Part shown: piece after piece, positions 1 through 18,125 of the stretch
How the letters are laid out: every line of letters starts with the position of its first letter
Numbering within the stretch: the stretch's first letter is position 1
Assembly (NCBI RefSeq): GCF_001870225.1
Contig: NZ_CP017675.1
Coordinates: 138,774-202,773, forward strand
From: Gloeomargarita lithophora Alchichica-D10
GTDB lineage: Bacteria > Cyanobacteriota > Cyanobacteriia > Gloeomargaritales > Gloeomargaritaceae
DNA: 64,000 bases
Direction: 5' to 3'
Position numbers and translations under genes: made by a program
Notes under the pieces: generated by a model
What the model was told of the DNA's origin: nothing
What the model saw: the letters and a program-made list of their open reading frames with translations, nothing else
Databases searched by the model: none

Positions 1-112
1 CATCGACTGATAGCGTAGCGTGGTGTAGCCATAATCTTTCGCCGTTGTTAAATGGCTCTTTGAGTTTTCCTTGAGCCATCAGAAATTTGATTTTTCTAAA
101 ATACAAAAATAT
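1..112. other. window edge, no gene; REP-like fragment
   Basis: No coding region is supported here. The first ~35 bases contain a gatagcgtagcgtgg stretch that resembles the short palindromic repeat seen at 25360-25400, 25467-25497 and 59580-59615, so it is probably a fragment of that REP-like family. Confidence 0.4.
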
Positions 113-298
113 TCACCCTGTTCTGATCTCATTTAAGGTTGCTATATTACCTAAGTAATCATAAATACTCATTGGTTTAATAGACAAATTTTTAGTTAGA
201 TAAAAATCAAGAAAATTATCACTATCATTTAACTGTATATTTTTTATTGGTGAATCATGAAACTGGCGAATAAAATTCTTTAAGACTGACCACATCAT
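113..298 (-). CDS. small hypothetical protein (61 aa), doubtful
   Basis: An AT-rich open frame encodes a 61-residue polypeptide with no motif I recognise. Its composition (many Asn, Ile, Asp, Leu) differs from the GC-rich core genes. It lies directly behind a truncated transposase and overlaps it by 4 bases. It may be the tail of a broken gene rather than an intact small gene. No signal peptide or membrane segment is evident. I assign no function and doubt that it is expressed. Confidence 0.25.
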   Translation of the reverse strand: MMWSVLKNFIRQFHDSPIKNIQLNDSDNFLDFYLTKNLSIKPMSIYDYLGNIATLNEIRTG

Positions 299-483
299 TT
301 CAAATGGCTAACGCCACGCTCCGCTATGGGTGTTAAATCCTGGGTCTGTTTATATTGTTGCACCAAGCGATGTACTGTCCTCTTTGTCACCATGAATCGC
401 TCTGCCACTTTCCGCATTGATGTCCCACCCAACCGATAGGCCGCCACAATCCTTTGCCGTAAATCTAACGAATGCGTTGGCAT
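295..483 (-). pseudogene. IS630-type transposase, N-terminal fragment
   Basis: The 62-residue product starts MPTHSLDLRQRIVAAYRLGG and continues with SMRKVAERFMVTKRTVHRLVQQY. This is the helix-turn-helix typical of the first domain of IS630/Tc1-mariner transposases (orfA). The rest of the transposase, including the DDE catalytic domain, is absent. The frame ends soon after residue 55, where a palindromic piece (about 300-328, similar to the REP-like repeat elsewhere in the window) interrupts it. I read this as an insertion-sequence remnant that cannot move by itself. Confidence 0.7.
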
Positions 484-612
484 ATTTCTCCTCCTTGTCT
501 TTACTTACTTTATACCTATATTAGCTTAATAGGTTGTAGTGAACTTCTGTCAATTTTCACTCAAAAGTCACTCTCATTAGAAAAAATAGAAATTTTCAAA
601 GAAAAATGACAA

Positions 613-846
613 ATATTCAAGGGTTACGTCAGAAATGGAGAACGACTTGTTACTACCAATGATATAAAACTCGGCTTTTTGCATAGGCCGTTAGTAGATT
701 TGCAGAATATCACAACTACTTTGGATATTCAATTTTCTTCTACATCAAATACAATTAATTGGCCGGAATTTAGAGGAAAGAACCTAAGTAACTTAACCCT
801 TGCCCAGTTCCTCCCGCTGCAAATATGGACTAAAATTTTAGAGTAA
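613..846 (+). pseudogene. headless open frame, gene remnant
   Basis: A 77-codon frame without an internal ATG runs from just after a TGA at 607 to a TAA at 844. It reads IFKGYVRNGERLVTTNDIKL at the start and ends QIWTKILE. The length and composition suggest the C-terminal part of a lost protein rather than chance, but I recognise no family. It lies between the transposase remnant and tsaD, so it may be the tail of a gene disrupted by the insertion sequence. The stretch 484-612 holds nothing else I can support. Confidence 0.3.
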
Positions 847-884
847 ATCACTAATAAAAACTGCGAAAAATTCACCCCAATCCC

Positions 885-1925
885 ATGACCACTATTTTAG
901 CCATTGAAACCAGTTGTGATGAAACGGCGGTGGCGGTCGTCCAAAACCGCCAGGTTTTAGCGGAAGCGGTGGCTTCCCAAATCGCTCAGCATCAAGTCTA
1001 TGGGGGCGTGGTGCCGGAGATTGCCTCCCGGCAACATTTGGAGGTGATTAACGTTTTACTCCAACAGGTGCAAACGGCAACCGGCTTATCTTGGGGGGAA
1101 CTGGATGCCATTGCCGTCACCTGTGCGCCGGGGTTGGTGGGGGCGTTGAACATTGGGCTGGCCGCCGCCAAAACCTTAGCGATCCTCTATCAACAACCCT
1201 TGGTGGGGATTCACCATTTGGAAGGCCACATTTGCGCCGCTTATTTAACCGACCCCCACCTGCAACCGCCGTTTTTATGCCTGTTGGTATCCGGGGGGCA
1301 TACCAGTTTGGTAGCGGTGCGGGAGGGGCAGACCTACCACCCCCTGGGGCAAACCCGGGATGATGCGGTGGGGGAAGCCTTTGATAAAGTGGCTCGCCTG
1401 TTGGGGTTGGGGTATCCCGGCGGCCCCGCCATTGACCGCCTTGCCCCCAGCGGTAATCCCCAGGCGTTTGCCTTGCCGGAGGGTAAAATTTCCCTACCGG
1501 GGGGCGGGGTTCACCCCTACGACATGAGTTTTAGTGGCCTCAAAACCGCCGTGCGGCGTTTGGTAGAAAAAATCCCCCCACCCCTGCCGGTAGCGGATGT
1601 AGCGGCCAGTTTTCAGTACACGGTTGTGCAAGCCTTGACCCGCCGAGCGATGCGGTGTGCGCTGGATCAGGGCTTGACTACCTTGGTCGTGGCCGGGGGG
1701 GTAGCGGCGAATCGGGAATTGCGGCAGACTATCACCGCAACGGCGACCCAGCAAGGCATCCGGGTGATTATTCCGCCCATGAAGTACTGCACTGACAATG
1801 CGGCCATGATTGGCTGTGCGGGCGTAATCCGCCTGAAACAGGGGCAAGGTTCCCCCTTGCATCTCACCAGCCAGTCCCGGATGATGCTCACAGATATTCA
1901 TACATTGTATGGCAAAGCAGAATAA
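885..1925 (+). CDS. tsaD: tRNA N6-adenosine threonylcarbamoyltransferase TsaD
   Basis: TsaD (Kae1/Gcp/YgjD) transfers the threonylcarbamoyl group from threonylcarbamoyl-AMP to A37 of ANN-decoding tRNAs, with TsaB and TsaE. The 346-residue product has normal length. It shows the ASKHA-fold start [18 protein letters not shown], the metal-binding HLEGH motif (His111 and His115), the SGGHT loop (about 136-140) and the C-terminal CTDNAAMIG motif. The ATG at 885 gives the canonical N-terminus. Neighbours on both sides are repeats and remnants, so it appears to be a single-gene unit. Identification is secure. Confidence 0.97.
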
Positions 1926-2020
1926 GGTTATTGCCTCGAAAGAAGCAAAAGCCAAGGGCGGGGCGTTGCCCTTGGGACTTACCTTTAGAGGTTTCCCTAG
2001 GAATAATAGGAGAAACCTTA

Positions 2021-2341
2021 AGACACCTCTATTTATTTGAATCAATAGAAAAACCTATCGCTATCGCTAAGTAGGGTAAGGTTGTCGCCTCAAGATTCTG
2101 GGAAACCAATGCGGGGCTGCGCCCTGCGACCCATATTATGTCAACCTTTGCGTGTTTAGCTATATAGCTAAGTAGAGTAAGGTTGTCGTCTCAAGATTCT
2201 GTTGAACTAACGTGGGAATGCGCCTTGCTACCTATATTAGTTATGTCAACCTTTGCGTGTTTAGCTATAGAAGGCAGATATTCGGGAGAATCATACACCG
2301 CAGGTGCTTCTGGGACGGGGAGTACCCCCCCTACAACCGTT
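2021..2341. repeat. MITE-like repeat with a tandem ~100-bp duplication
   Basis: The block starts with GACACCTCTATTTATTTGA, one end of the interspersed element found throughout the window. Two near-identical units follow at about 2066-2163 and 2167-2269. Both contain gtaaggttgtcg, ctcaagattctg and atgtcaacctttgcg. A third related segment (2271-2341) resembles the copy at 39320-39400. Open frames crossing this block are artefacts. Bases 1926-2020 and 2342-2511 hold nothing else I recognise. Confidence 0.75.
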
Positions 2342-2511
2342 ATGCAAAATTCAAAGAGGATTGCTGTATTGCCTCCACCAATGACTAAGCGGCATAACGA
2401 CTCAAATCAGCGGCGGCAAGTAACCTCGAACTCAGTGCCGACTGTTTTCAACTGTCCGCTGCATTTGAATTTTTGTGCGGCTACCACCAAGCCTATTTTG
2501 TACCAAGAACT

Positions 2512-3174
2512 TTATGATGATTTGATTGTCTCACCCTTGAATTTAGAATCAGCCAGATCTATCGCACTTGTAACCTGAACGGCAAGCGCATGAACAGTTT
2601 CAAGATCGGCTGTCATGGAGTGTAGCGGACCATCAACCAACAAGGAAGCCAGTCCGTGAACTAGACTCCAGACTGAAATTGCTGCGGTATTGCGATCGCG
2701 CCACACAAACTGAAATTCATCAATCACCTGTAGCAACACTCTAAAAACTGGTGTACAGGTCGGGTTTTCATCTTCCAACGGCGAACCCATTTCAGGACGA
2801 AACATCAGCCGAAACTCAGCCGGATGTTGCACGGCATACATGACATAGGTGACACCGATCGCCTGTAATTTTTCCTGTGGGATCATTTTCCCCCTTATTG
2901 CCTCGTGGGAGGCACGATCTAGGCACTGAAACCCATGCGAAACCAGTTCACGAATCAGGTCGGCTTTGTCCTTGAAATGATGATAGGGCGCACTAGGGCT
3001 AACACCAGCACGGCGGGCAACTTCCCGCAGGGTCAGGGATTCGATGCCAGAGTCTTCCATCAACTCCCGCGCCGCATCTAACAGCGCTAGGCGGAGATTG
3101 CCGTGGTGGTAAGCGTCTGATTTTTTCATCGGTTTTGGGGGCACGACGGCACTTGCGAAATGAGAACTTGACAT
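2512..3174 (-). CDS. TetR/AcrR-family transcriptional regulator
   Basis: The 220-residue product has an N-terminal TetR DNA-binding domain: helices AALLDAARELMEDSG-like, then a helix-turn-helix TLREVARRAGVSPSAPYHHF (about residues 48-67). A C-terminal ligand/dimer domain contains HPAEFRLMFRPE. A better start may be Met16 (3129), which begins MKKSDAYHHGNLR, a common start of this subgroup. It is divergent from the short-chain dehydrogenase at 3254, and the 79-bp gap holds an inverted repeat, so it probably represses that gene and itself. The region carries GCGATCGC sites (one at 2692 inside this gene) unlike the surrounding genome, which suggests transfer from another cyanobacterium. Confidence 0.88.
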   Translation of the reverse strand: MSSSHFASAVVPPKPMKKSDAYHHGNLRLALLDAARELMEDSGIESLTLREVARRAGVSPSAPYHHFKDKADLIRELVSHGFQCLDRASHEAIRGKMIPQEKLQAIGVTYVMYAVQHPAEFRLMFRPEMGSPLEDENPTCTPVFRVLLQVIDEFQFVWRDRNTAAISVWSLVHGLASLLVDGPLHSMTADLETVHALAVQVTSAIDLADSKFKGETIKSS

Positions 3175-3199
3175 CGTTTAGATTCTACTATATCTTGGT

Positions 3200-3220
3200 A
3201 GTGTTCAGATTCTAAACACT
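3200..3220. promoter_or_regulatory. candidate TetR operator (inverted repeat)
   Basis: AGTGTT and AACACT form 6-base arms around a 9-base centre between the divergent regulator and dehydrogenase genes. The position and size suit a TetR-family operator covering both promoters. This is inferred from symmetry and position only. Confidence 0.4.
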
Positions 3221-3253
3221 GCTTAGATAAATCAGGCAGTAAGGAGTTTCTCT

Positions 3254-4030
3254 ATGCTTTTGTCATCCAAAAATGTTCTGGTGTTTGCGGCAACGGGCGC
3301 GATCGCTAACGAAGTTGCCCGTAAATTTGCCTGTGAAGGCGCTCATGTTTGGCTGTCGGGGCGCAATGCAGACGCTCTAGAGCAATTAGTGCAGCAGATT
3401 GCCGATGCGGGTGGCACTGCGAAGGCAGATATAGTGGATGCCACTGATGCCACCGCTGTAACCGATTATGTTAACCGGATTGCAGCGACAGCAGGCTCGA
3501 TTGATGCGGTTTTCAATGGCATTGGCGGACGACCGGCAGACTTAGGCTATCCAGAGCCATCAACGACTGTGGAACTAAGCCAATTTCTGAAGCCGTTGCA
3601 GATTATTTTGGGTTCTACGTTTCTTACCTCCCGCGCCGTTGGGGCACTGATGATGCAGCAGGGCAGTGGGGCGATCGTCACGCTTTCTGCCACGCTGAGT
3701 GGGATGACGGCGGCAAATATGGCGGGGATTAGTGCTACCTGTGGGGCGATCGAGGCGATGACGCGATCGCTGGCGGGTGAGTTTGGGCGAGCGGGCGTGC
3801 GCGTCAACTGTGTGCGTGGCTCTGCCATGCCAGAAACGCGCACCATTCAGGAAACCATTGCGGGGCAAATCCAGATTTTTGGCGAGATGCCACCAATGGC
3901 ACTGCCGCCTTTGGGTCGTCCGATTTCGGTGGCTGAAACAGCTTCCACAGCCGCATTTCTGGCTTCTGATGCATCCAGTGGCATGACTGGGCAGGTGGTG
4001 ACGGTGTGTGCTGGTGCGTTTGTCGGCTAA
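3254..4030 (+). CDS. SDR-family protein with altered catalytic residues
   Basis: The 258-residue protein has the short-chain dehydrogenase/reductase fold: a nucleotide-binding start VLVFAATGAIANEVARKFA, the FNGIGG segment replacing NNAG, and the C-terminal GRPISVAETASTAAFLASD and GMTGQVVTVCAGA signatures. Aligned with the fabG at 45180 (YSAAKAGVIGLTR), its equivalent segment is ISATCGAIEAMTR. The catalytic Tyr is therefore Ile159 and the catalytic Lys is Cys163. Classical hydride-transfer chemistry is then doubtful, and it may be a divergent reductase or a binding protein. A good Shine-Dalgarno (AGGAG at 3242) precedes the ATG. It is divergent from a TetR gene and probably co-transcribed with the Fe-S gene that follows. 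HIP1 sites mark it as likely acquired. Confidence 0.85.
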   Translation: MLLSSKNVLVFAATGAIANEVARKFACEGAHVWLSGRNADALEQLVQQIADAGGTAKADIVDATDATAVTDYVNRIAATAGSIDAVFNGIGGRPADLGYPEPSTTVELSQFLKPLQIILGSTFLTSRAVGALMMQQGSGAIVTLSATLSGMTAANMAGISATCGAIEAMTRSLAGEFGRAGVRVNCVRGSAMPETRTIQETIAGQIQIFGEMPPMALPPLGRPISVAETASTAAFLASDASSGMTGQVVTVCAGAFVG

Positions 4031-4067
4031 TCACCCCTATTTGAAAAAACATCATCGGGAAACCTCA

Positions 4068-5399
4068 ATGGCTAAATTTGATGACCATCCCACTGTGCGC
4101 TGGTGGCGGGAACAGCCCATTGCCCCCAACCCCGTCAAGCTCAATGCCGACTCGCTGCGATCGCTCTGTCTGGAAGCGGGTGCCGATGATGTCGGGTTTG
4201 TGGAGTTAGATCGACCTGCAATCGCCGACCAGCGCTCAGACATTCTGGCAACCTTTGCCCCAACGAAAGCATTGATTAGCATTGTTTGCCGAATGAATTG
4301 GGAAAACGTGCGGACTCCAGCCCGATCGGTTGCCAATCTGGAATTTCACGCCAACTATGACGAGGTGAACGAGGTTGCACGGGCGATCGTCAAATTGTTG
4401 AATCAGACTGGGGTAAGAGCCTTGTATCCATCCGCAGGGTTCCCGATGGAAATGGATCGCTTTCCAGACAAGATTTGGGTTGTGTCTCACAAACCCGTGG
4501 CGGTGGCGGCGGGGCTGGGTCACATGGGGCTACACCGCAACGTGATCCATCCCAAGTTTGGCAACTTCATTTCATTAGGCACGATCTTGATCGATGCAGA
4601 AGTGACTGAGTACAACCAACCGATCGACTACAACCCCTGCATTGATTGCAAACTGTGTGTGGTCGCCTGTCCTGTCGGTGCGATCGCCCCCGATGGGTAC
4701 TTCAACTTCTCCGCTTGTTACACCCACAACTACCGCGAGTTGATGAGTGGCTTCACCGATTGGGCAGAAACGATCGCCGACAGCAAAAATGCCAAAGACT
4801 ATCGCCAAAAAGTGACGGCATCAGAATCGGCTTCCATGTGGCAAAGCCTTTCTTTCAAAGCCAACTACAAAGCCGCCTATTGCATCGCAGCCTGTCCGGC
4901 GGGAGAAGATGTGATTGCGCCGTTTTTGAGCGATCGCAAAGGATTTATCCGAGAAGTCGTCAAACCCTTGCAGGATAAACTCGAACCGATTTACGTCGTG
5001 CCCGGATCAGATGCAGAAACCTATGTCGCCCGTCGCTTTCCCCATAAAACGATCCGCCGTGTTAGCAGTGGCATTCGCCCTCAATCAATTCCTGGCTTTT
5101 TGTTTGGGTTACCACTGCTGTTTCAACGCGATCAATCCAAGGGCTTGAATGCGGTTTATCATTTCACGTTCTTCGGGGCGGAATCTTCTCAGGCAACTGT
5201 AACCATTTGCGATCGCACCGTTCAAGTCGAACGAGGACATACAGGAATAGCAGATCTGGCGATCGTGGCAGACAGCAAAACCTGGCTAGGGTTTGTAGCA
5301 AAAGAGAAAAATCTAATTTGGGCATTGCTACAACGCAAAATTCGGATCAAAGGCTCTATTAAATTGCTTCAGGCATTTGGCAAGTGCTTTCCAGCCTGA
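4068..5399 (+). CDS. 4Fe-4S protein, QueG-like, with C-terminal SCP2-like domain
   Basis: I start at ATG 4068 (443 aa); an in-frame start at 4008 would overlap the SDR gene. The N-terminal half resembles the reductive-dehalogenase/epoxyqueuosine-reductase (QueG) family: GADDVGFVELD near 38-48 and AAGLGHMGLHRNVIHPKFG near 147-165. A ferredoxin motif has C191, C194, C197 and C201, and a second incomplete set has C217, C272 and C276 (YCIAACPAG). The last ~85 residues (from LNAVYHFTFFG to LLQAFGKCF) look like a sterol-carrier-protein-2 (SCP2) lipid-binding domain. That fusion suggests electron transfer to a hydrophobic substrate. It follows the SDR gene by 37 bp. QueG itself lacks the SCP2 part, so I do not call it queG. 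Substrate unknown. Confidence 0.8.
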   Translation: MAKFDDHPTVRWWREQPIAPNPVKLNADSLRSLCLEAGADDVGFVELDRPAIADQRSDILATFAPTKALISIVCRMNWENVRTPARSVANLEFHANYDEVNEVARAIVKLLNQTGVRALYPSAGFPMEMDRFPDKIWVVSHKPVAVAAGLGHMGLHRNVIHPKFGNFISLGTILIDAEVTEYNQPIDYNPCIDCKLCVVACPVGAIAPDGYFNFSACYTHNYRELMSGFTDWAETIADSKNAKDYRQKVTASESASMWQSLSFKANYKAAYCIAACPAGEDVIAPFLSDRKGFIREVVKPLQDKLEPIYVVPGSDAETYVARRFPHKTIRRVSSGIRPQSIPGFLFGLPLLFQRDQSKGLNAVYHFTFFGAESSQATVTICDRTVQVERGHTGIADLAIVADSKTWLGFVAKEKNLIWALLQRKIRIKGSIKLLQAFGKCFPA

Positions 5400-5433
5400 T
5401 CAAAATTTAACTCGTGTTTGAGAACTCAATCAA

Positions 5434-5546
5434 GGACACTTCTATTTATTTGCACCAGCAAAATGTTGTCTCGCTAGAATACGGGTATTACCAAGAACCA
5501 GATACGGGAAAGTACCCCTGCGACCCATTTTTAGGTGTATCTGTTA
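5434..5546. repeat. MITE-like interspersed repeat
   Basis: The segment begins GGACACTTCTATTTATTTG, has the internal aagaaccagatacgggaaag and ctgcgaccc parts of the family, and ends near taggtgtatct. It is a diverged copy of the window-wide ~110-120 bp element. The rest of 5547-5746 contains an unassigned stretch with tttccgggtactaagcccgg (a possible small hairpin) and no credible gene. Confidence 0.65.
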
Positions 5547-5746
5547 GTTAAAGGGAGGATTCTACGGTGCCGTTTTACCTCAGTTTTGGACCGCAAAAAA
5601 TCAAGTGGGTACCTCTATCCCCAATCTAAAGTTTCCGGGTACTAAGCCCGGTTTACTGCCATTGGAGTGCTTGGTTCCCTCAGGCGCGGCTTGTAGATCA
5701 CAAAACATTATTGGCAGTCACCAACACCGTAGAATTACCTCATTTC

Positions 5747-6879
5747 TCACTGTATCAAATTTGCTTTGCTTAGACCACCAGACCACAGTGCTTCCACCCG
5801 GTCAACCCAGGCGGTGACTTGATGCGGTTGGACGTTTAACAAGTTGATATGACCGAGTTTGCGCCCCGGTCGGGATTGGTTTTTGCCATACCAATACACG
5901 CGCCCCCATTGCGCCAGTTGCTGCCGTGGCAGGGCGTAATCGCTGGTGGCGGTTTCATAACCCAAAAGGTTGACCATTAAAACGCCGGGGCTGGTGAGGG
6001 CGGTGCTCCCCAGGGGTTGGGCGGTGACTGCCCGTAAATGCTGGTGAAATTGGGACGTAACGCAGGCATCCAGGGTGTAATGGCCGGAATTGTGGGTGCG
6101 GGGGGCAATTTCGTTGAGCAGAACCGTACCATTACTCAAATAAAACCATTCCGTAGCCAATAGTCCCTGGTAATCCAAAGCGGTGAGTAGGGTGTGGGTA
6201 TGCAGTTGGATTTGCTGAATGACCCCATCGGGGAGCGGTGCGGGGGCAAAAACCCAGCGGCAGACTTGGTTGGCCTGGTGGGTGCGGCTGATCGGGTAGG
6301 TGGCAATCGTACCGGCGGGATGGCGGACAGCAACCAGGGCTAATTCCTGGACAAAGGGCACATAGGTTTCGGCCAGCACGCTGGGAACCGGCCATGCTTG
6401 CCAGAGAGCGGTCAAATCCGCGGGGGTGTGAATCACCCGGGTGCCCAACCCGTCATAACCGTGGCGGCGGGTTTTGACCACCAGAGGTAGGGTGGGGGGG
6501 GGGCGCCGTGGGGCAATAACCAAAATTCTGGCACGGGCAACCCCAAATCCCGGACATAACACCGTTGGTCGTATTTATCCAATAGGGGAGCCAAACTGGT
6601 CAAACCGGGACGAAAAATTACCCCCGGTGGGGCGGATTGGGTCAACCATTCCAGGTTAATCAATTCATTTTCAAAGGTAATGACTTGGCATTTCCGTATG
6701 AGGTTTGCAAGACCCGCCGGGTCATCCCAAGGGGCGGCGATATGTCCGGCACTGTTCGCAACGGCGGGGTCAGCGGCATCAGGGGTTTGTACCCATAGGT
6801 CTATACCCAAATCCTGAGCCGCCTGTGCCAGCATCCAGGCCAGTTGCCCCCCACCCAAAACCCCCACAGTTGGGCGCAT
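5747..6879 (-). CDS. purK: N5-carboxyaminoimidazole ribonucleotide synthase PurK, frameshifted as read
   Basis: PurK uses ATP to carboxylate AIR in de novo purine synthesis. The N-terminal part (from ATG 6879) reads PTVGVLGGGQLAWMLAQAA and the C-terminal part has ATEWFYLSNGTVLLNEIAPR and LGHINLL, all typical of the ATP-grasp PurK family. The two parts lie in different frames and meet at a run of ten G (6494-6503; C on the coding strand) after residues VPEFWLLPHG. Eight or eleven bases in that run would restore one ~378-codon frame that continues into PLVVKTRRHGYDGLG. The protein otherwise looks intact on both sides, so I favour a homopolymer sequencing error over a real pseudogene; slippage-based phase variation is an alternative. 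It lies 3 bp below the rnhA stop. Confidence 0.88.
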
Positions 6880-6882
6880 CAC

Positions 6883-7497
6883 CTACTTCCGCCCAAAATC
6901 CGCTGGAATTTGCCCCCAATTGCGGGTGTCCCATTTCCAGAGGGGGTTGGGGTAGGTATGGGTGGTCAACCAGCGTTCGGCGGCTTGAATTTCGGCTCCT
7001 AAGGGGTTGTGTTCCAGGGGCAAATTCGTCCGGCATTGGCGTTTTTGTACCCACCCCAGGGCAATTTGGGAGTCAGAATAAATCGGCCAGTCACACCCCC
7101 GTTCAGCGCACCATTGCAAGCCAGAGACAATCGCCAGAAATTCCGCAATGTTGTTGGTTCCCAGGGGATAGGGTCCCCGATGGAAAATTTCTGCCCCCGT
7201 TTCGGTATGAACGCCCCGGTATTCCATTACCCCCGGATTGCCAGAGCAGGCACCATCCACCGCATAACTTTGCGCCACATGAGCGGTTGTGCGGGTTTTG
7301 GCGGGGCGGGGAGCCGGGGCGGAGGGAACCAAATCGTTGGTTTTTGCCAAAAAAGCTTGGTCGGCGGTTGCCCAATCAGGATAGCCTTTGTACTGCGCTC
7401 CCCGAAAACTCCGTACCTGTTCCCAACAATCATCCCAGGTGCGATAAACGCCGGGTTTGCGCCCCCGCCACACCACATACGCCTTGAATCGGGTCAT
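6883..7497 (-). CDS. rnhA: ribonuclease HI with N-terminal hybrid-binding domain
   Basis: The product (204 aa from ATG 7497) removes RNA from RNA-DNA hybrids. Residues ~1-50 (TRFKAYVVWRGRKPGVYRTW and DCWEQVRSFRGAQYKGY) form the viroplasmin/RNase H1 hybrid-binding domain usual in eukaryotic RNase H1 and some bacteria. The C-terminal RNase H domain shows the acidic active-site segments VDGACSGNPG, NNIAEFLAIVSG and IYSDSQIALGWV. A longer frame upstream to 7635 would overlap the preceding gene, so I reject that start. The start overlaps the preceding membrane-protein gene by 4 bases (ATGA), and purK begins 3 bp after its stop, suggesting one leftward operon. Confidence 0.93.
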   Translation of the reverse strand: MTRFKAYVVWRGRKPGVYRTWDDCWEQVRSFRGAQYKGYPDWATADQAFLAKTNDLVPSAPAPRPAKTRTTAHVAQSYAVDGACSGNPGVMEYRGVHTETGAEIFHRGPYPLGTNNIAEFLAIVSGLQWCAERGCDWPIYSDSQIALGWVQKRQCRTNLPLEHNPLGAEIQAAERWLTTHTYPNPLWKWDTRNWGQIPADFGRK

Positions 7498-7988
7498 GGT
7501 TTTTCCAAAAAATGCGATAACAACGGGCGCAGTTCCGGTTGATTTTGATACAAATAACGGACGGTGGCCTGCAAGCGGGGCAATTCCGCTGGCGGAACGG
7601 TGCGAAATAGATGGGTTAAGGTGGGGGCATCCCACGCCCGTTGCCCCGTGAGCAATGCGCTCAAAGTTTGTTCAAATTGCCGGTGCTGCCGCTGGGTAGA
7701 GCGGTGGAATTGCGGCCACAACAGCAATCCCCCCAACGCAAATCCCCCCGCCCCCGCCATCGCTCCCGGTAGGGTCATGCCGCTTTCCAGCCAAATCCCC
7801 GTCCCGATAATGGCCGCCAGCCCCACGGTGAAGCCCCAAGCTGGGGAAAAGGGTGAGTCTGGCCGCCCGCGCCACCAAGGGGCAACCAGGGCGACCGCCA
7901 ACCCCAATCCAACCACTGTTCCCACACTTTCAAGTACACCGTCTGGCATGGTTTTGCTGAAGAGGTAATGAATTGATACTGGTTTCAA
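7494..7988 (-). CDS. small membrane protein, hypothetical
   Basis: The 164-residue protein has two to three hydrophobic segments near the N-terminus (VGTVVGLGLAVALVAPW, GFTVGLAAIIGTGIWL and AMAGAGGFALGGLLLW). A charged, helical C-terminal part follows (RQHRQFEQTLSALLTG and RLQATVRYLYQNQPELRPLL). A later start at Met14 (7949, MPDGVLESVG) is equally plausible. The stop overlaps the rnhA start by 4 bases, so it is translationally coupled to rnhA. I recognise no family, but it looks like the conserved short membrane proteins found in cyanobacterial operons. Confidence 0.6.
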   Translation of the reverse strand: MKPVSIHYLFSKTMPDGVLESVGTVVGLGLAVALVAPWWRGRPDSPFSPAWGFTVGLAAIIGTGIWLESGMTLPGAMAGAGGFALGGLLLWPQFHRSTQRQHRQFEQTLSALLTGQRAWDAPTLTHLFRTVPPAELPRLQATVRYLYQNQPELRPLLSHFLEKP

Positions 7989-8090
7989 TCATATTTTATC
8001 CCAGTCCTACGGTCGCTTGGTAGGGTTAGCCGCCCATTTCACAAACATTGAAGACATTAGACCTTTTGCAGGTATCCATAATGCACTTTA

Positions 8091-8405
8091 GGACACCTCT
8101 AAAAATAGGTCGCAGGGGCACTTTCCCGCATCTGATTCTCGGTAATATCGGTATTCCAGCGAGATGAATTTCTGCTGGTTCAAATAAATAGGGGGCACCT
8201 CTATTAATCGCAAATTAGCGGTCGCAGGGGGGCACCCCCCGAACTTGGTTCTCCAAAATCTCTGCATTCCAGCGAGATGAATTTCTGCTGGTTCAAATAA
8301 ATAGGGGGCACCTCTATTAATCGTAAATTAGCGGTCGCAGGGGGGCACCCCCCGAACTTGGTTCTGTGGAATTTCTGTTTGTAAATCGTGTCATATTGCT
8401 ATAAA
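8091..8405. repeat. three tandem MITE-like repeats
   Basis: Three copies of the interspersed element lie head to tail: about 8091-8193, 8191-8306 and 8304-8405. They share their boundary sequence GGGGGCACCTCTAT. Copies two and three are nearly identical over ttagcggtcgcagggggg and caccccccgaacttggttct. The last copy ends in the alternative terminus catattgctata. Bases 7989-8090 show no gene. Confidence 0.8.
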
Positions 8406-8441
8406 CTCAATTATAATAACATTAGATACTAGTCTTTACGA

Positions 8442-9215
8442 ATGATGCGGATTAAACGACTTCCTGCCTTGAGGGATAATTACATCTTTGTCCTGTGGGA
8501 TGAATTGGGGGGCACGGCGGCGGTGGTTGACCCGGCGGAACCCGCTCCCGTCCTAGATTTTTTACACGCACATCAATTGAAATTAACGGCTATTTTGAAT
8601 ACCCATCATCATGGCGATCATGTGGGGGCGAATCAGGATTTATTGCACTATTTTCCTGATTTAACCGTTTATGGGGGGGCAAATGATCGGGGCAGGATTC
8701 CGGGGCAAACAGTTTTTTTAGAACCGGGGGATCAAATTAATTTTGCAACTAGAACGGCAACCATTTACTTTGTCCCTGGGCATACAAAAGCCCATATTGC
8801 CTATTATTTTCTGCCAACAGTTACACAACCGGGAGAACTTTTCATTGGGGATACTTTGTTTTCGGGGGGCTGTGGGCGTTTGTTTGAAGGCACGCCTGCT
8901 CAAATGCTGCATTCTTTGCATCAAATTCGCTCATTATCTAGGGAGACTCGCCTATGGTGCGCCCATGAATATACTGAGAATAATCTCCGGTTTTCTTTGA
9001 CGGTTGAACCTGATAATATAATCCTGAAAAATTATGCCCATCAGGTGCAAAAATTACGACAAAAAGGACAAGCCACTATCCCTAGTACATTGGGTTTAGA
9101 AATGGAAATTAATCCCTTTTTACGCTGGGATAAACCGATGGTTGAACAAGCGATGGGGACGAGTGAACCCGTGGCAACTTTTACCGAATTACGCCACCGC
9201 AAGGATCATTTTTAA
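8442..9215 (+). CDS. gloB: hydroxyacylglutathione hydrolase (glyoxalase II)
   Basis: Metallo-beta-lactamase-fold thioesterase that hydrolyses S-lactoylglutathione in methylglyoxal detoxification. The 257-residue product has the metal-binding motif THHHGDH (His55, His57, Asp59, His60), the GHTKAHI histidine, the D-bridging [15 protein letters not shown] segment and the late CAHEYTENN histidine, and the C-terminal part has family length. Two ATG codons occur in tandem at 8442 and 8445. folB follows after 3 bases, so they are probably co-transcribed. A repeat array lies immediately upstream and probably contains or flanks the promoter. Confidence 0.95.
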
Positions 9216-17910: not shown

Positions 17911-18125
17911 GGACGCTTCTAAAAATAGGTCGCAGGGCACCGCCCCCGGACTTGCTTCTCAGTAATACCCGTATCTCAGCGAGATACCTTTCTCCTGGTA
18001 CAAATAAATAGAAGGAAACTTCTAAAAATGGGTCGCAGGGGCACCGCCCCCGGACTTGGTTCTCAGTAATACCCGTATTTCAGCGAGATGACTTTCTGCT
18101 GGTACAAATAAATAGAAGTATCCTT
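17911..18125. repeat. two tandem MITE-like repeats
   Basis: Two copies of the interspersed element, about 17911-18018 and 18015-18125, lie in direct tandem. Each runs from the (a/g)cttctaaaaat(a/g)ggtcgcagg end through caccgcccccggacttg to gtacaaataaatagaag. They are about 95 percent alike by eye. Confidence 0.75.

Follow-up and report, generated by a model that had tools for sequence, protein, structure and literature searches.

The closest described relatives of the enzyme reported here are QueG and the reductive dehalogenases (RdhA; PceA, NpRdhA), class III cobalamin/[4Fe-4S] enzymes in which a nitroreductase-type cobalamin-binding module is combined with a two-cluster ferredoxin module. 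In QueG, the cluster ligands C184, C187, C190, and C243 lie far from the cobalamin and C194, C210, C236, and C239 near it, and the catalytic motif is D100-Y101-H102; the source describes class III as having no distinct sequence motif, and adds that other class III families may exist and that a motif for finding them is lacking (PMC4646009). The catabolic reductive dehalogenases are oxygen-tolerant (PMC10463259). A second point of comparison is UbiT with UbiU-UbiV, in which an SCP2 lipid-binding domain is partnered with [4Fe-4S] proteins in oxygen-independent ubiquinone synthesis, and ubiT-ubiU fusions have been reported in Zymomonas (PMC6747719). Here, a cassette of three genes was analyzed in Gloeomargarita lithophora Alchichica-D10, encoding a TetR-family repressor, an SDR-fold protein, and a protein that joins a QueG/RdhA-like [4Fe-4S] core to a C-terminal SCP2 domain (Fe-S/SCP2). 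The cassette lies in a window of 64,000 nucleotides, bases 138,774–202,773 of the single-contig genome of 3,049,282 bp, and all positions refer to this window unless given in kb. We consider the cassette, with slightly more confidence than doubt, to be a self-contained, laterally acquired inducible module for the TetR-controlled reduction of a lipophilic compound, with the SDR protein as an accessory. The main point of attention is the Fe-S/SCP2 enzyme family, together with the SDR partner that, in this clade, lacks the catalytic tetrad.

The Fe-S/SCP2 protein (443 amino acids; 4068..5399, forward strand) was characterized by Pfam, profile and fold comparisons. The alignment with its relatives suggests that the ATG at 4068 is a more likely start than the GTG at 4008 taken from the list of open reading frames (ORFs). 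The SCP2 domain (5127..5387, forward strand, residues 354–440) scored 32.8 bits against PF02036, above the cut-off of 21.3, and matched it at E 0.01 in 32 of the 38 rows of a family alignment in which six Actinobacteria rows had been cut where the match ends; no Pfam family was found at E 0.01 for the first 179 residues of the protein. The same alignment, read with the cysteine spacing of QueG (PMC4646009), delimited a ferredoxin-like part at 4638..4895 on the forward strand. Seven QueG ligands map by spacing onto C191, C194, C197, C276, C201, C217, and C272, all of them invariant in 38 of 38 rows, and position 269, the place of the eighth QueG cysteine (C236) by the same spacing, holds alanine in 34 rows and serine in four. 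If the fold is right, the cofactor-proximal cluster would have three cysteine ligands. Apart from the cysteines, the residues F93, H94, K142, H220, N221, Y222, and R223 were invariant or nearly so and look like an active-site set.

The likeness to QueG comprises the CxxCxxCxxxC motif, the cysteine at +16 and the closing cysteine pair, an AG(L/I)G...FG/YG stretch ahead of the clusters, and the overall core fold; that to RdhA consists of the core fold and a profile alignment over positions 69–212. Both profile alignments, at 69–212 to 8q4h_A (in a reductive dehalogenase/QueG comparison) and at 143–221 to 5d6s, continue past the Fe-S motif. In structural comparisons based on a middling model, taken as support only, the core aligned with QueG (Z 13.1, root-mean-square deviation [rmsd] 5.7, 196 aligned) and NpRdhA (Z 12.3, rmsd 5.6, 203 aligned), with both matched at Z 11–13 and rmsd ~5 overall. 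However, the protein stayed below the thresholds of both curated models, with 51.8 bits for the NCBIfam QueG equivalog model TIGR00276 (cut-off 200) and 37.4 bits for the reductive dehalogenase model TIGR02486 (cut-off 160.35). It has seven cluster cysteines, whereas QueG has eight, and it lacks DYH at the expected place; the string occurred in one of the 38 rows (locus L009), within TDYHQP just ahead of the clusters. As read from the alignment, the position of the catalytic tyrosine of RdhA may correspond to residue 97, which is tyrosine in 13 of 38 rows, that of the window included. Two further differences are the SCP2 domain, which stands in place of the reductase domain of self-sufficient RdhA forms and is foreign to QueG, and the frequent vicinity of MarR or TetR genes. 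The SCP2 domain itself resembled known SCP2 domains (human MFE-2 SCP2L, alkylsulfatase C-terminal domains, UbiJ) at Z 10–16, with Z 14–16 to SCP2-like and alkylsulfatase C-terminal domains and Z 10.4 (rmsd 3.1, 102 aligned) to UbiJ-SCP2 (6h6p), but it differs from them in sitting behind a QueG/RdhA-like Fe-S core. Among the matches listed, no description of such an Fe-S/SCP2 protein, or function for it, was recognized in the open-licence literature.

These comparisons predict, at about even chances, that the Fe-S/SCP2 protein reduces a lipophilic compound; the prediction that it contains a corrinoid is tentative. The main rival, which we judge unlikely, is that it is a corrinoid-free electron carrier or a quinone/isoprenoid redox protein, whose ferredoxin-like part would pass electrons or do the chemistry while the SCP2 domain would bind an isoprenoid or a quinone, the role suggested for UbiJ and UbiT. 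Such a protein would be at ease with the missing eighth cysteine and with the SCP2 match to UbiJ, and subunit I of complex I is among the matches of the Fe-S part; yet the alignments to QueG and the reductive dehalogenase reach beyond the Fe-S motif, and the conserved residues other than the cysteines resemble an active site. The precedent of UbiT working with UbiU-UbiV favors the carrier, although these partners are U32-family hydroxylases with other cysteine patterns (PMC6747719). Finally, orthologs without the SCP2 domain retain the core, which speaks against this rival.

The second protein of interest is the SDR-fold protein (258 amino acids; 3254..4030, forward strand), identified by Pfam and alignments. 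Classical SDRs use a catalytic tetrad, N-S-Y-K. The cassette protein belongs to the SDR family according to Pfam (adh_short_C2, 139.1 bits; cut-off 27) and aligns over its full length with classical SDRs (3uf0; 7-alpha-hydroxysteroid dehydrogenase), but all four catalytic residues are replaced: N by I118, S by A146, Y by I159, and K by C163. The positions were taken from alignments to 3uf0, 9kd1, and four normal SDRs of related loci. The four replacing residues were invariant in the four cassette copies, those of G. lithophora, genome G101 (L002), Lyngbya sp. HA4199-MV5 (L009), and Tildeniella nuda (L028). Among these copies, the ratio of nonsynonymous to synonymous substitution rates (dN/dS) of the SDR gene was 0.047–0.085, an approximate value because dS was near 1. 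A pseudogene was ruled out by this ratio (0.05–0.09 at dS ~1). Four SDR relatives with 32–36% identity (L132–L135) are plasmid-borne, in Acaryochloris, Haladaptatus, and two rhizobia; Asn and Lys were missing from all four, Tyr from three (L134 keeps it), and Ser from three (L132 keeps it). They are perhaps part of a wider tetrad-less SDR branch. Since the tetrad loss is shared with relatives and the gene is under strong constraint, a conserved branch is indicated rather than a decayed gene. The annotated neighbors in three of these four loci vary (DUF1330, a TRAP transporter, and a phytanoyl-CoA dioxygenase). A structure model of the cassette SDR, built from four rows, was useless, with a predicted local distance difference test (pLDDT) score of 41.5.

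As the protein is unable to use the Tyr/Lys mechanism, an accessory or non-classical role is more likely. The alternative, an NAD(P)-dependent oxidoreductase that would work through other residues and make or remove a carbonyl on the same substrate, appears improbable to us, although several observations are in its favor. The Rossmann-like start of the protein is conserved, the constraint on the gene is strong, single tetrad residues persist in L134 and L132, and the N-S-Y-K tetrad is intact in all four SDRs compared from near the Fe-S/SCP2 gene of other lineages (L004, L019, L021, and L130). On the other side, the alteration of every tetrad position in all four cassettes, and the losses in L132–L135, suggest that the ordinary mechanism was abandoned long ago.

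The TetR gene (220 amino acids; 2512..3174, reverse strand) is divergent from the SDR gene, and its product was assigned to the TetR family by TetR_N (57.5 bits; cut-off 24) and TetR_C_33, also above its cut-off. In the region between them, a sigma-70-type promoter directed towards the SDR gene (TTGACA-17-TATCTT; 3168..3196, forward strand) shows 10 of 12 matches, and its TTGACA is conserved in the four cassettes. The scan returned four promoter-like sites when 3.4 were expected, so by itself it is no proof of a promoter. The operator-like palindrome TGTTCAGATTCTAAACA (3202..3218, no strand assigned) has seven of eight arm positions complementary; a search for inverted and direct repeats revealed a related half-site at 3176–3186, within the promoter spacer, and TGTTCAGATTCTAA, a stretch of the palindrome, was invariant in four of four cassettes. 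In the whole genome, the site occurred exactly once, with two further places at two mismatches. A repressor acting locally on a single target would show such a pattern; TetR is predicted to bind the palindrome, and local control of the cassette by its TetR protein is very probable.

The mechanism proposed for the cassette assembles these parts. Bound to the palindrome at 3202–3218, TetR would keep transcription off in both directions, and a small lipophilic molecule would release it from the DNA. The lipophilic substrate would then be held by the SCP2 domain and reduced by the QueG/RdhA-like core, which would use a pair of Fe-S clusters and, probably, a corrinoid in the base-off state. The SDR-fold partner, acting as an accessory or non-classical enzyme, would bind either the substrate or NAD(P)(H). 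Because the unit has no transporter or ring-cleavage genes, it would probably serve to remove or repair a toxic hydrophobic compound and not to support growth on it. Purifying selection was found on all three genes (dN/dS 0.045–0.085), with 0.062–0.083 for Fe-S/SCP2 and 0.045–0.068 for TetR. An original prediction for this DNA had named the same three gene products, all of which scored above their Pfam cut-offs, and had described a self-contained unit with divergent regulation, which is borne out by the own TetR gene, the divergent spacer, and the conserved palindrome that is found once in the genome. Its further proposal, that the genes form an inducible redox pathway acting on a hydrophobic compound, is a prediction that fits the components, but the SDR lacks the residues of an ordinary SDR oxidoreductase. 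The regulator and its single conserved operator-like site offer a direct route to the inducer, and hence to the substrate.

For the Fe-S/SCP2 protein, 386 cyanobacterial genomes were searched at E 1e-20, and GTDB species contigs were scanned for relatives of the Fe-S protein, with 94 stretches found and 80 kept. The neighborhoods of 39 SCP2-type loci (L002–L033, L073, L084, L086, L087, and L129–L131; L006 and L008 together make up a single gene of one genome) were surveyed with profiles, mostly within 4–5 kb or less on each side and over less DNA for several. A MarR gene was present within ~5 kb in 22 loci and a TetR gene in 11, so that either was found in 32 (L013 has both); an SDR gene was present in 13 and an NmrA-type gene in four. 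Pfam confirmed ten sample neighbors as MarR, TetR, SDR, or NmrA. The same profiles applied to 140,558 bases of control DNA from this genome and its family returned no MarR, TetR, or NmrA and one SDR. No regulator was matched in seven of the 39 loci (L003, L004, L006, L033, L084, L086, and L129), and in L006, L033, L084, and L086 the gene starts at or near a contig end. TetR, SDR, and Fe-S/SCP2 genes occurred together in ten loci: four in cyanobacteria (L002, L007, L009, and L028), four in Acidobacteria metagenome-assembled genomes (MAGs; L018, L019, L021, and L030), and two on Priestia plasmids (L130 and L131), with the order TetR-Fe-S/SCP2-permease-SDR-fabF in the latter. The SDRs of the Acidobacteria and Priestia triples are only distantly similar to that of the cassette and are catalytically normal. 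The cassette trio is thus the local form of a wider TetR + SDR + Fe-S/SCP2 pattern, and judging from these neighborhoods the Fe-S/SCP2 enzyme is recurrently paired with MarR or TetR and often with an SDR or NmrA protein.

Taken across phyla, this strongly conserved family is a concrete class III candidate. It is possible, although doubtful, that the Fe-S/SCP2 proteins form a further class III cobalamin/[4Fe-4S] family beside QueG and RdhA: a reductase with its own lipid-binding domain and a site-differentiated, corrinoid-side cluster with three cysteine ligands, which would act in many phyla under MarR or TetR control on one kind of lipophilic toxicant and, in some cyanobacteria, with a tetrad-less SDR partner.

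Several observations weigh against the reading of the cassette as an inducible, lipid-binding reductase module. The neighbor profiles were seeded partly from loci that were then counted (8 MarR, 4 TetR, 6 SDR, and 3 NmrA), so only the remainder of the counts is independent, and the taxa of the control DNA differ from those of most surveyed loci. TetR genes are common in GC-rich Actinobacteria. No SDR or NmrA match was obtained in 18 of the 22 MarR-type loci, so the core enzyme can do without the SDR. Of the reading frames of 51 actinobacterial orthologs, 49 end short of 360 codons (48 at 330–358; L044 at 140), and only L083 and L088 run further, to 433 and 386 codons; hence the core also occurs as an enzyme that lacks SCP2, and lipid binding is not needed family-wide. 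The structure model of the Fe-S/SCP2 protein had a pLDDT of 73.1 and a predicted template-modelling score of 0.55, and was weak around the clusters. Lastly, UbiT with UbiU-UbiV, the closest published partnership of an SCP2 domain and [4Fe-4S] proteins that was found, carries out a hydroxylation rather than a reduction (PMC6747719).

Other features of the surveyed loci were also recorded. A natural fusion of Fe-S/SCP2 and SDR in L073 was ruled out, the SDR being encoded downstream by a gene of its own, in a different frame. Genes annotated as ester cyclases lie near the Fe-S/SCP2 gene on a Nostoc plasmid (L129) and on one of the two Priestia plasmids (L130), and may hint at the substrate class. 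In Calothrix sp. NIES-4101 (L013), the MarR and Fe-S/SCP2 genes are split at 2537–3898 of the locus by an ORF that, by reading, is putatively transposase-like. The contig of L010, filed as a Candidatus Gracilibacteria MAG, has 2.0 octamers of the highly iterated palindrome HIP1 per kb, an 82% identical Fe-S/SCP2 gene, and a MarR of cyanobacterial type, and is probably a misbinned cyanobacterial contig.

The origin of the cassette was approached through HIP1, GCGATCGC. The window holds seven copies, at 2692, 3299, 3763, 4157, 4680, 4930, and 5209 (2692..5216, no strand assigned), so that all of them fall in the cassette, as the original prediction had stated; the mean in shuffled windows was 0.52, and none of 100 shuffles reached seven. 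Likewise, the supposition that the octamer is rare elsewhere was upheld by the exact count of 52 in the whole genome, of which seven are in the cassette, 11 at 841.9–864.5 kb, nine at 2210.8–2213.9 kb, and the remaining 25 outside these clusters. Scaled from 64 kb to the genome, the shuffle mean of 0.52 gives ~25 copies, so the 25 unclustered ones are near the chance level. At the genome background, the Poisson probability of at least seven copies in 2888 bp was 5e-14. The core CGATCG marked the cassette with a sharper edge than the octamer, 15 of the 16 sites of the window being within 2693–5265. Clustering by chance was ruled out by the shuffles, the Poisson value, and the CGATCG counts. A less G-run-rich codon use had also been claimed: GGGG/CCCC was indeed less dense in the cassette (8.0 per kb, against 22.2 per kb in the remaining window), but the G+C content at third codon positions (GC3), the sole codon measure, was not distinctive (0.49–0.56 in the three cassette genes, 0.41–0.65 in three neighbors).

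The block of 2.9 kb was almost certainly acquired laterally. The Fe-S/SCP2 gene was found at E 1e-10 in one of eight Gloeomargaritaceae genomes, G. lithophora itself, and was not found in the seven others. In the cyanobacterial survey, the protein was detected in seven of the 386 genomes and the cassette-type SDR in two (E 1e-50; E 1e-40), G. lithophora included in both cases. Among the loci of the 386-genome and GTDB scans, the full trio was present in three other cyanobacteria (L002, L009, and L028), whose loci contain 1.4–1.6 HIP1 per kb. Identity across the cassettes was 79–87% for TetR, 89–90% for SDR, and 86–88% for Fe-S/SCP2, and the DNA similarity spanned genes and spacers, from 2517 to 5404 at its widest. 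The genes flanking the cassette are not the same in any two of L009, L028, and the window; L002 is too short for comparison. When 30 Fe-S/SCP2 proteins were placed in a tree (eight of the 38 aligned rows, all shorter than 380 amino acids, were omitted), the four cassette copies formed one clade with 100/100 support amid other cyanobacterial sequences. Judged by these sequence comparisons, the block is one piece common to HIP1-rich cyanobacteria and foreign to this genus; the donor is a HIP1-rich cyanobacterium, and "foreign" does not mean from outside the phylum. Thus the original prediction of a foreign cassette is supported by the HIP1 density, by the lack of matches in the other family genomes, and by the 79–90% identity to other cyanobacteria, and the three genes were found together in other genomes. 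That the HIP1 cluster is native DNA, enriched locally by chance or function, is very improbable, for although GC3 does not set the cassette apart and some other HIP1 sites of the genome are clustered too, the two other clusters carry genes typical of imports, the G-runs are unlike those of the remaining window, and the family distribution, the protein identities, and the tree argue for transfer.

Transfer of a small cassette, with HIP1 as its compositional mark, is ordinary; the use of octamers to detect transfer, and the influence of HIP1 on such detection, were already known (PMC3497702). In a HIP1-poor cyanobacterium, HIP1 can act as a positive mark of imports from other cyanobacteria.

At the borders of the cassette, DNA taken as native was found on both sides. 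At the left edge, a dispersed repeat of ~105 bp is present twice in tandem (2062..2269, no strand assigned; tens of copies in the genome), and the right edge carries a copy of a second dispersed repeat family (5433..5535, no strand assigned). Repeats of these two families, ~100 bp long, have some 40 or more genome copies each, several as tandem pairs, and in the window they lie at 2062–2269, 5433–5535, 8099–8304, and 17919–18124. Beyond the right edge, a 6S RNA (5555..5738, reverse strand) adjoins purK, directly downstream of it; the purK-6S block is shared with DNA of the relative G389 as far as window position 5549, so the 6S RNA marks native DNA. The same arrangement was seen in the relatives G388 and G389, and no 6S RNA was detected by purK in G085. 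A clean empty site was not obtained; no purK lies in the stretches of 5.8–10 kb beside tsaD of seven relatives. No transposase was recognized among the ORFs of at least 90 amino acids in window positions 1–9000, only part of which were compared with a library. A defence system was rejected as an identity for the cassette, none of the TetR, SDR, and Fe-S/SCP2 proteins having a PADLOC match at E 0.001.

The two other HIP1 clusters of the genome were also inspected. The cluster at 841.9–864.5 kb (11 sites; L126 covers 841–858 kb) contains the type I restriction-modification genes HsdM, HsdS, and HsdR (Pfam), and that at 2210.8–2213.9 kb (nine sites; L127) contains the CRISPR-Cas genes Cas6, Cas3, and a DevR/Csa2-type Cas7. 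Both kinds of genes are typical imports, and the clusters are probably further imports from HIP1-rich cyanobacteria. The control pattern CGCTAGCG is perhaps an alternate highly iterated palindrome in two genomes of the same genus: G386 has 77 copies of it and 7 of HIP1, and G387 has 74 and 6.

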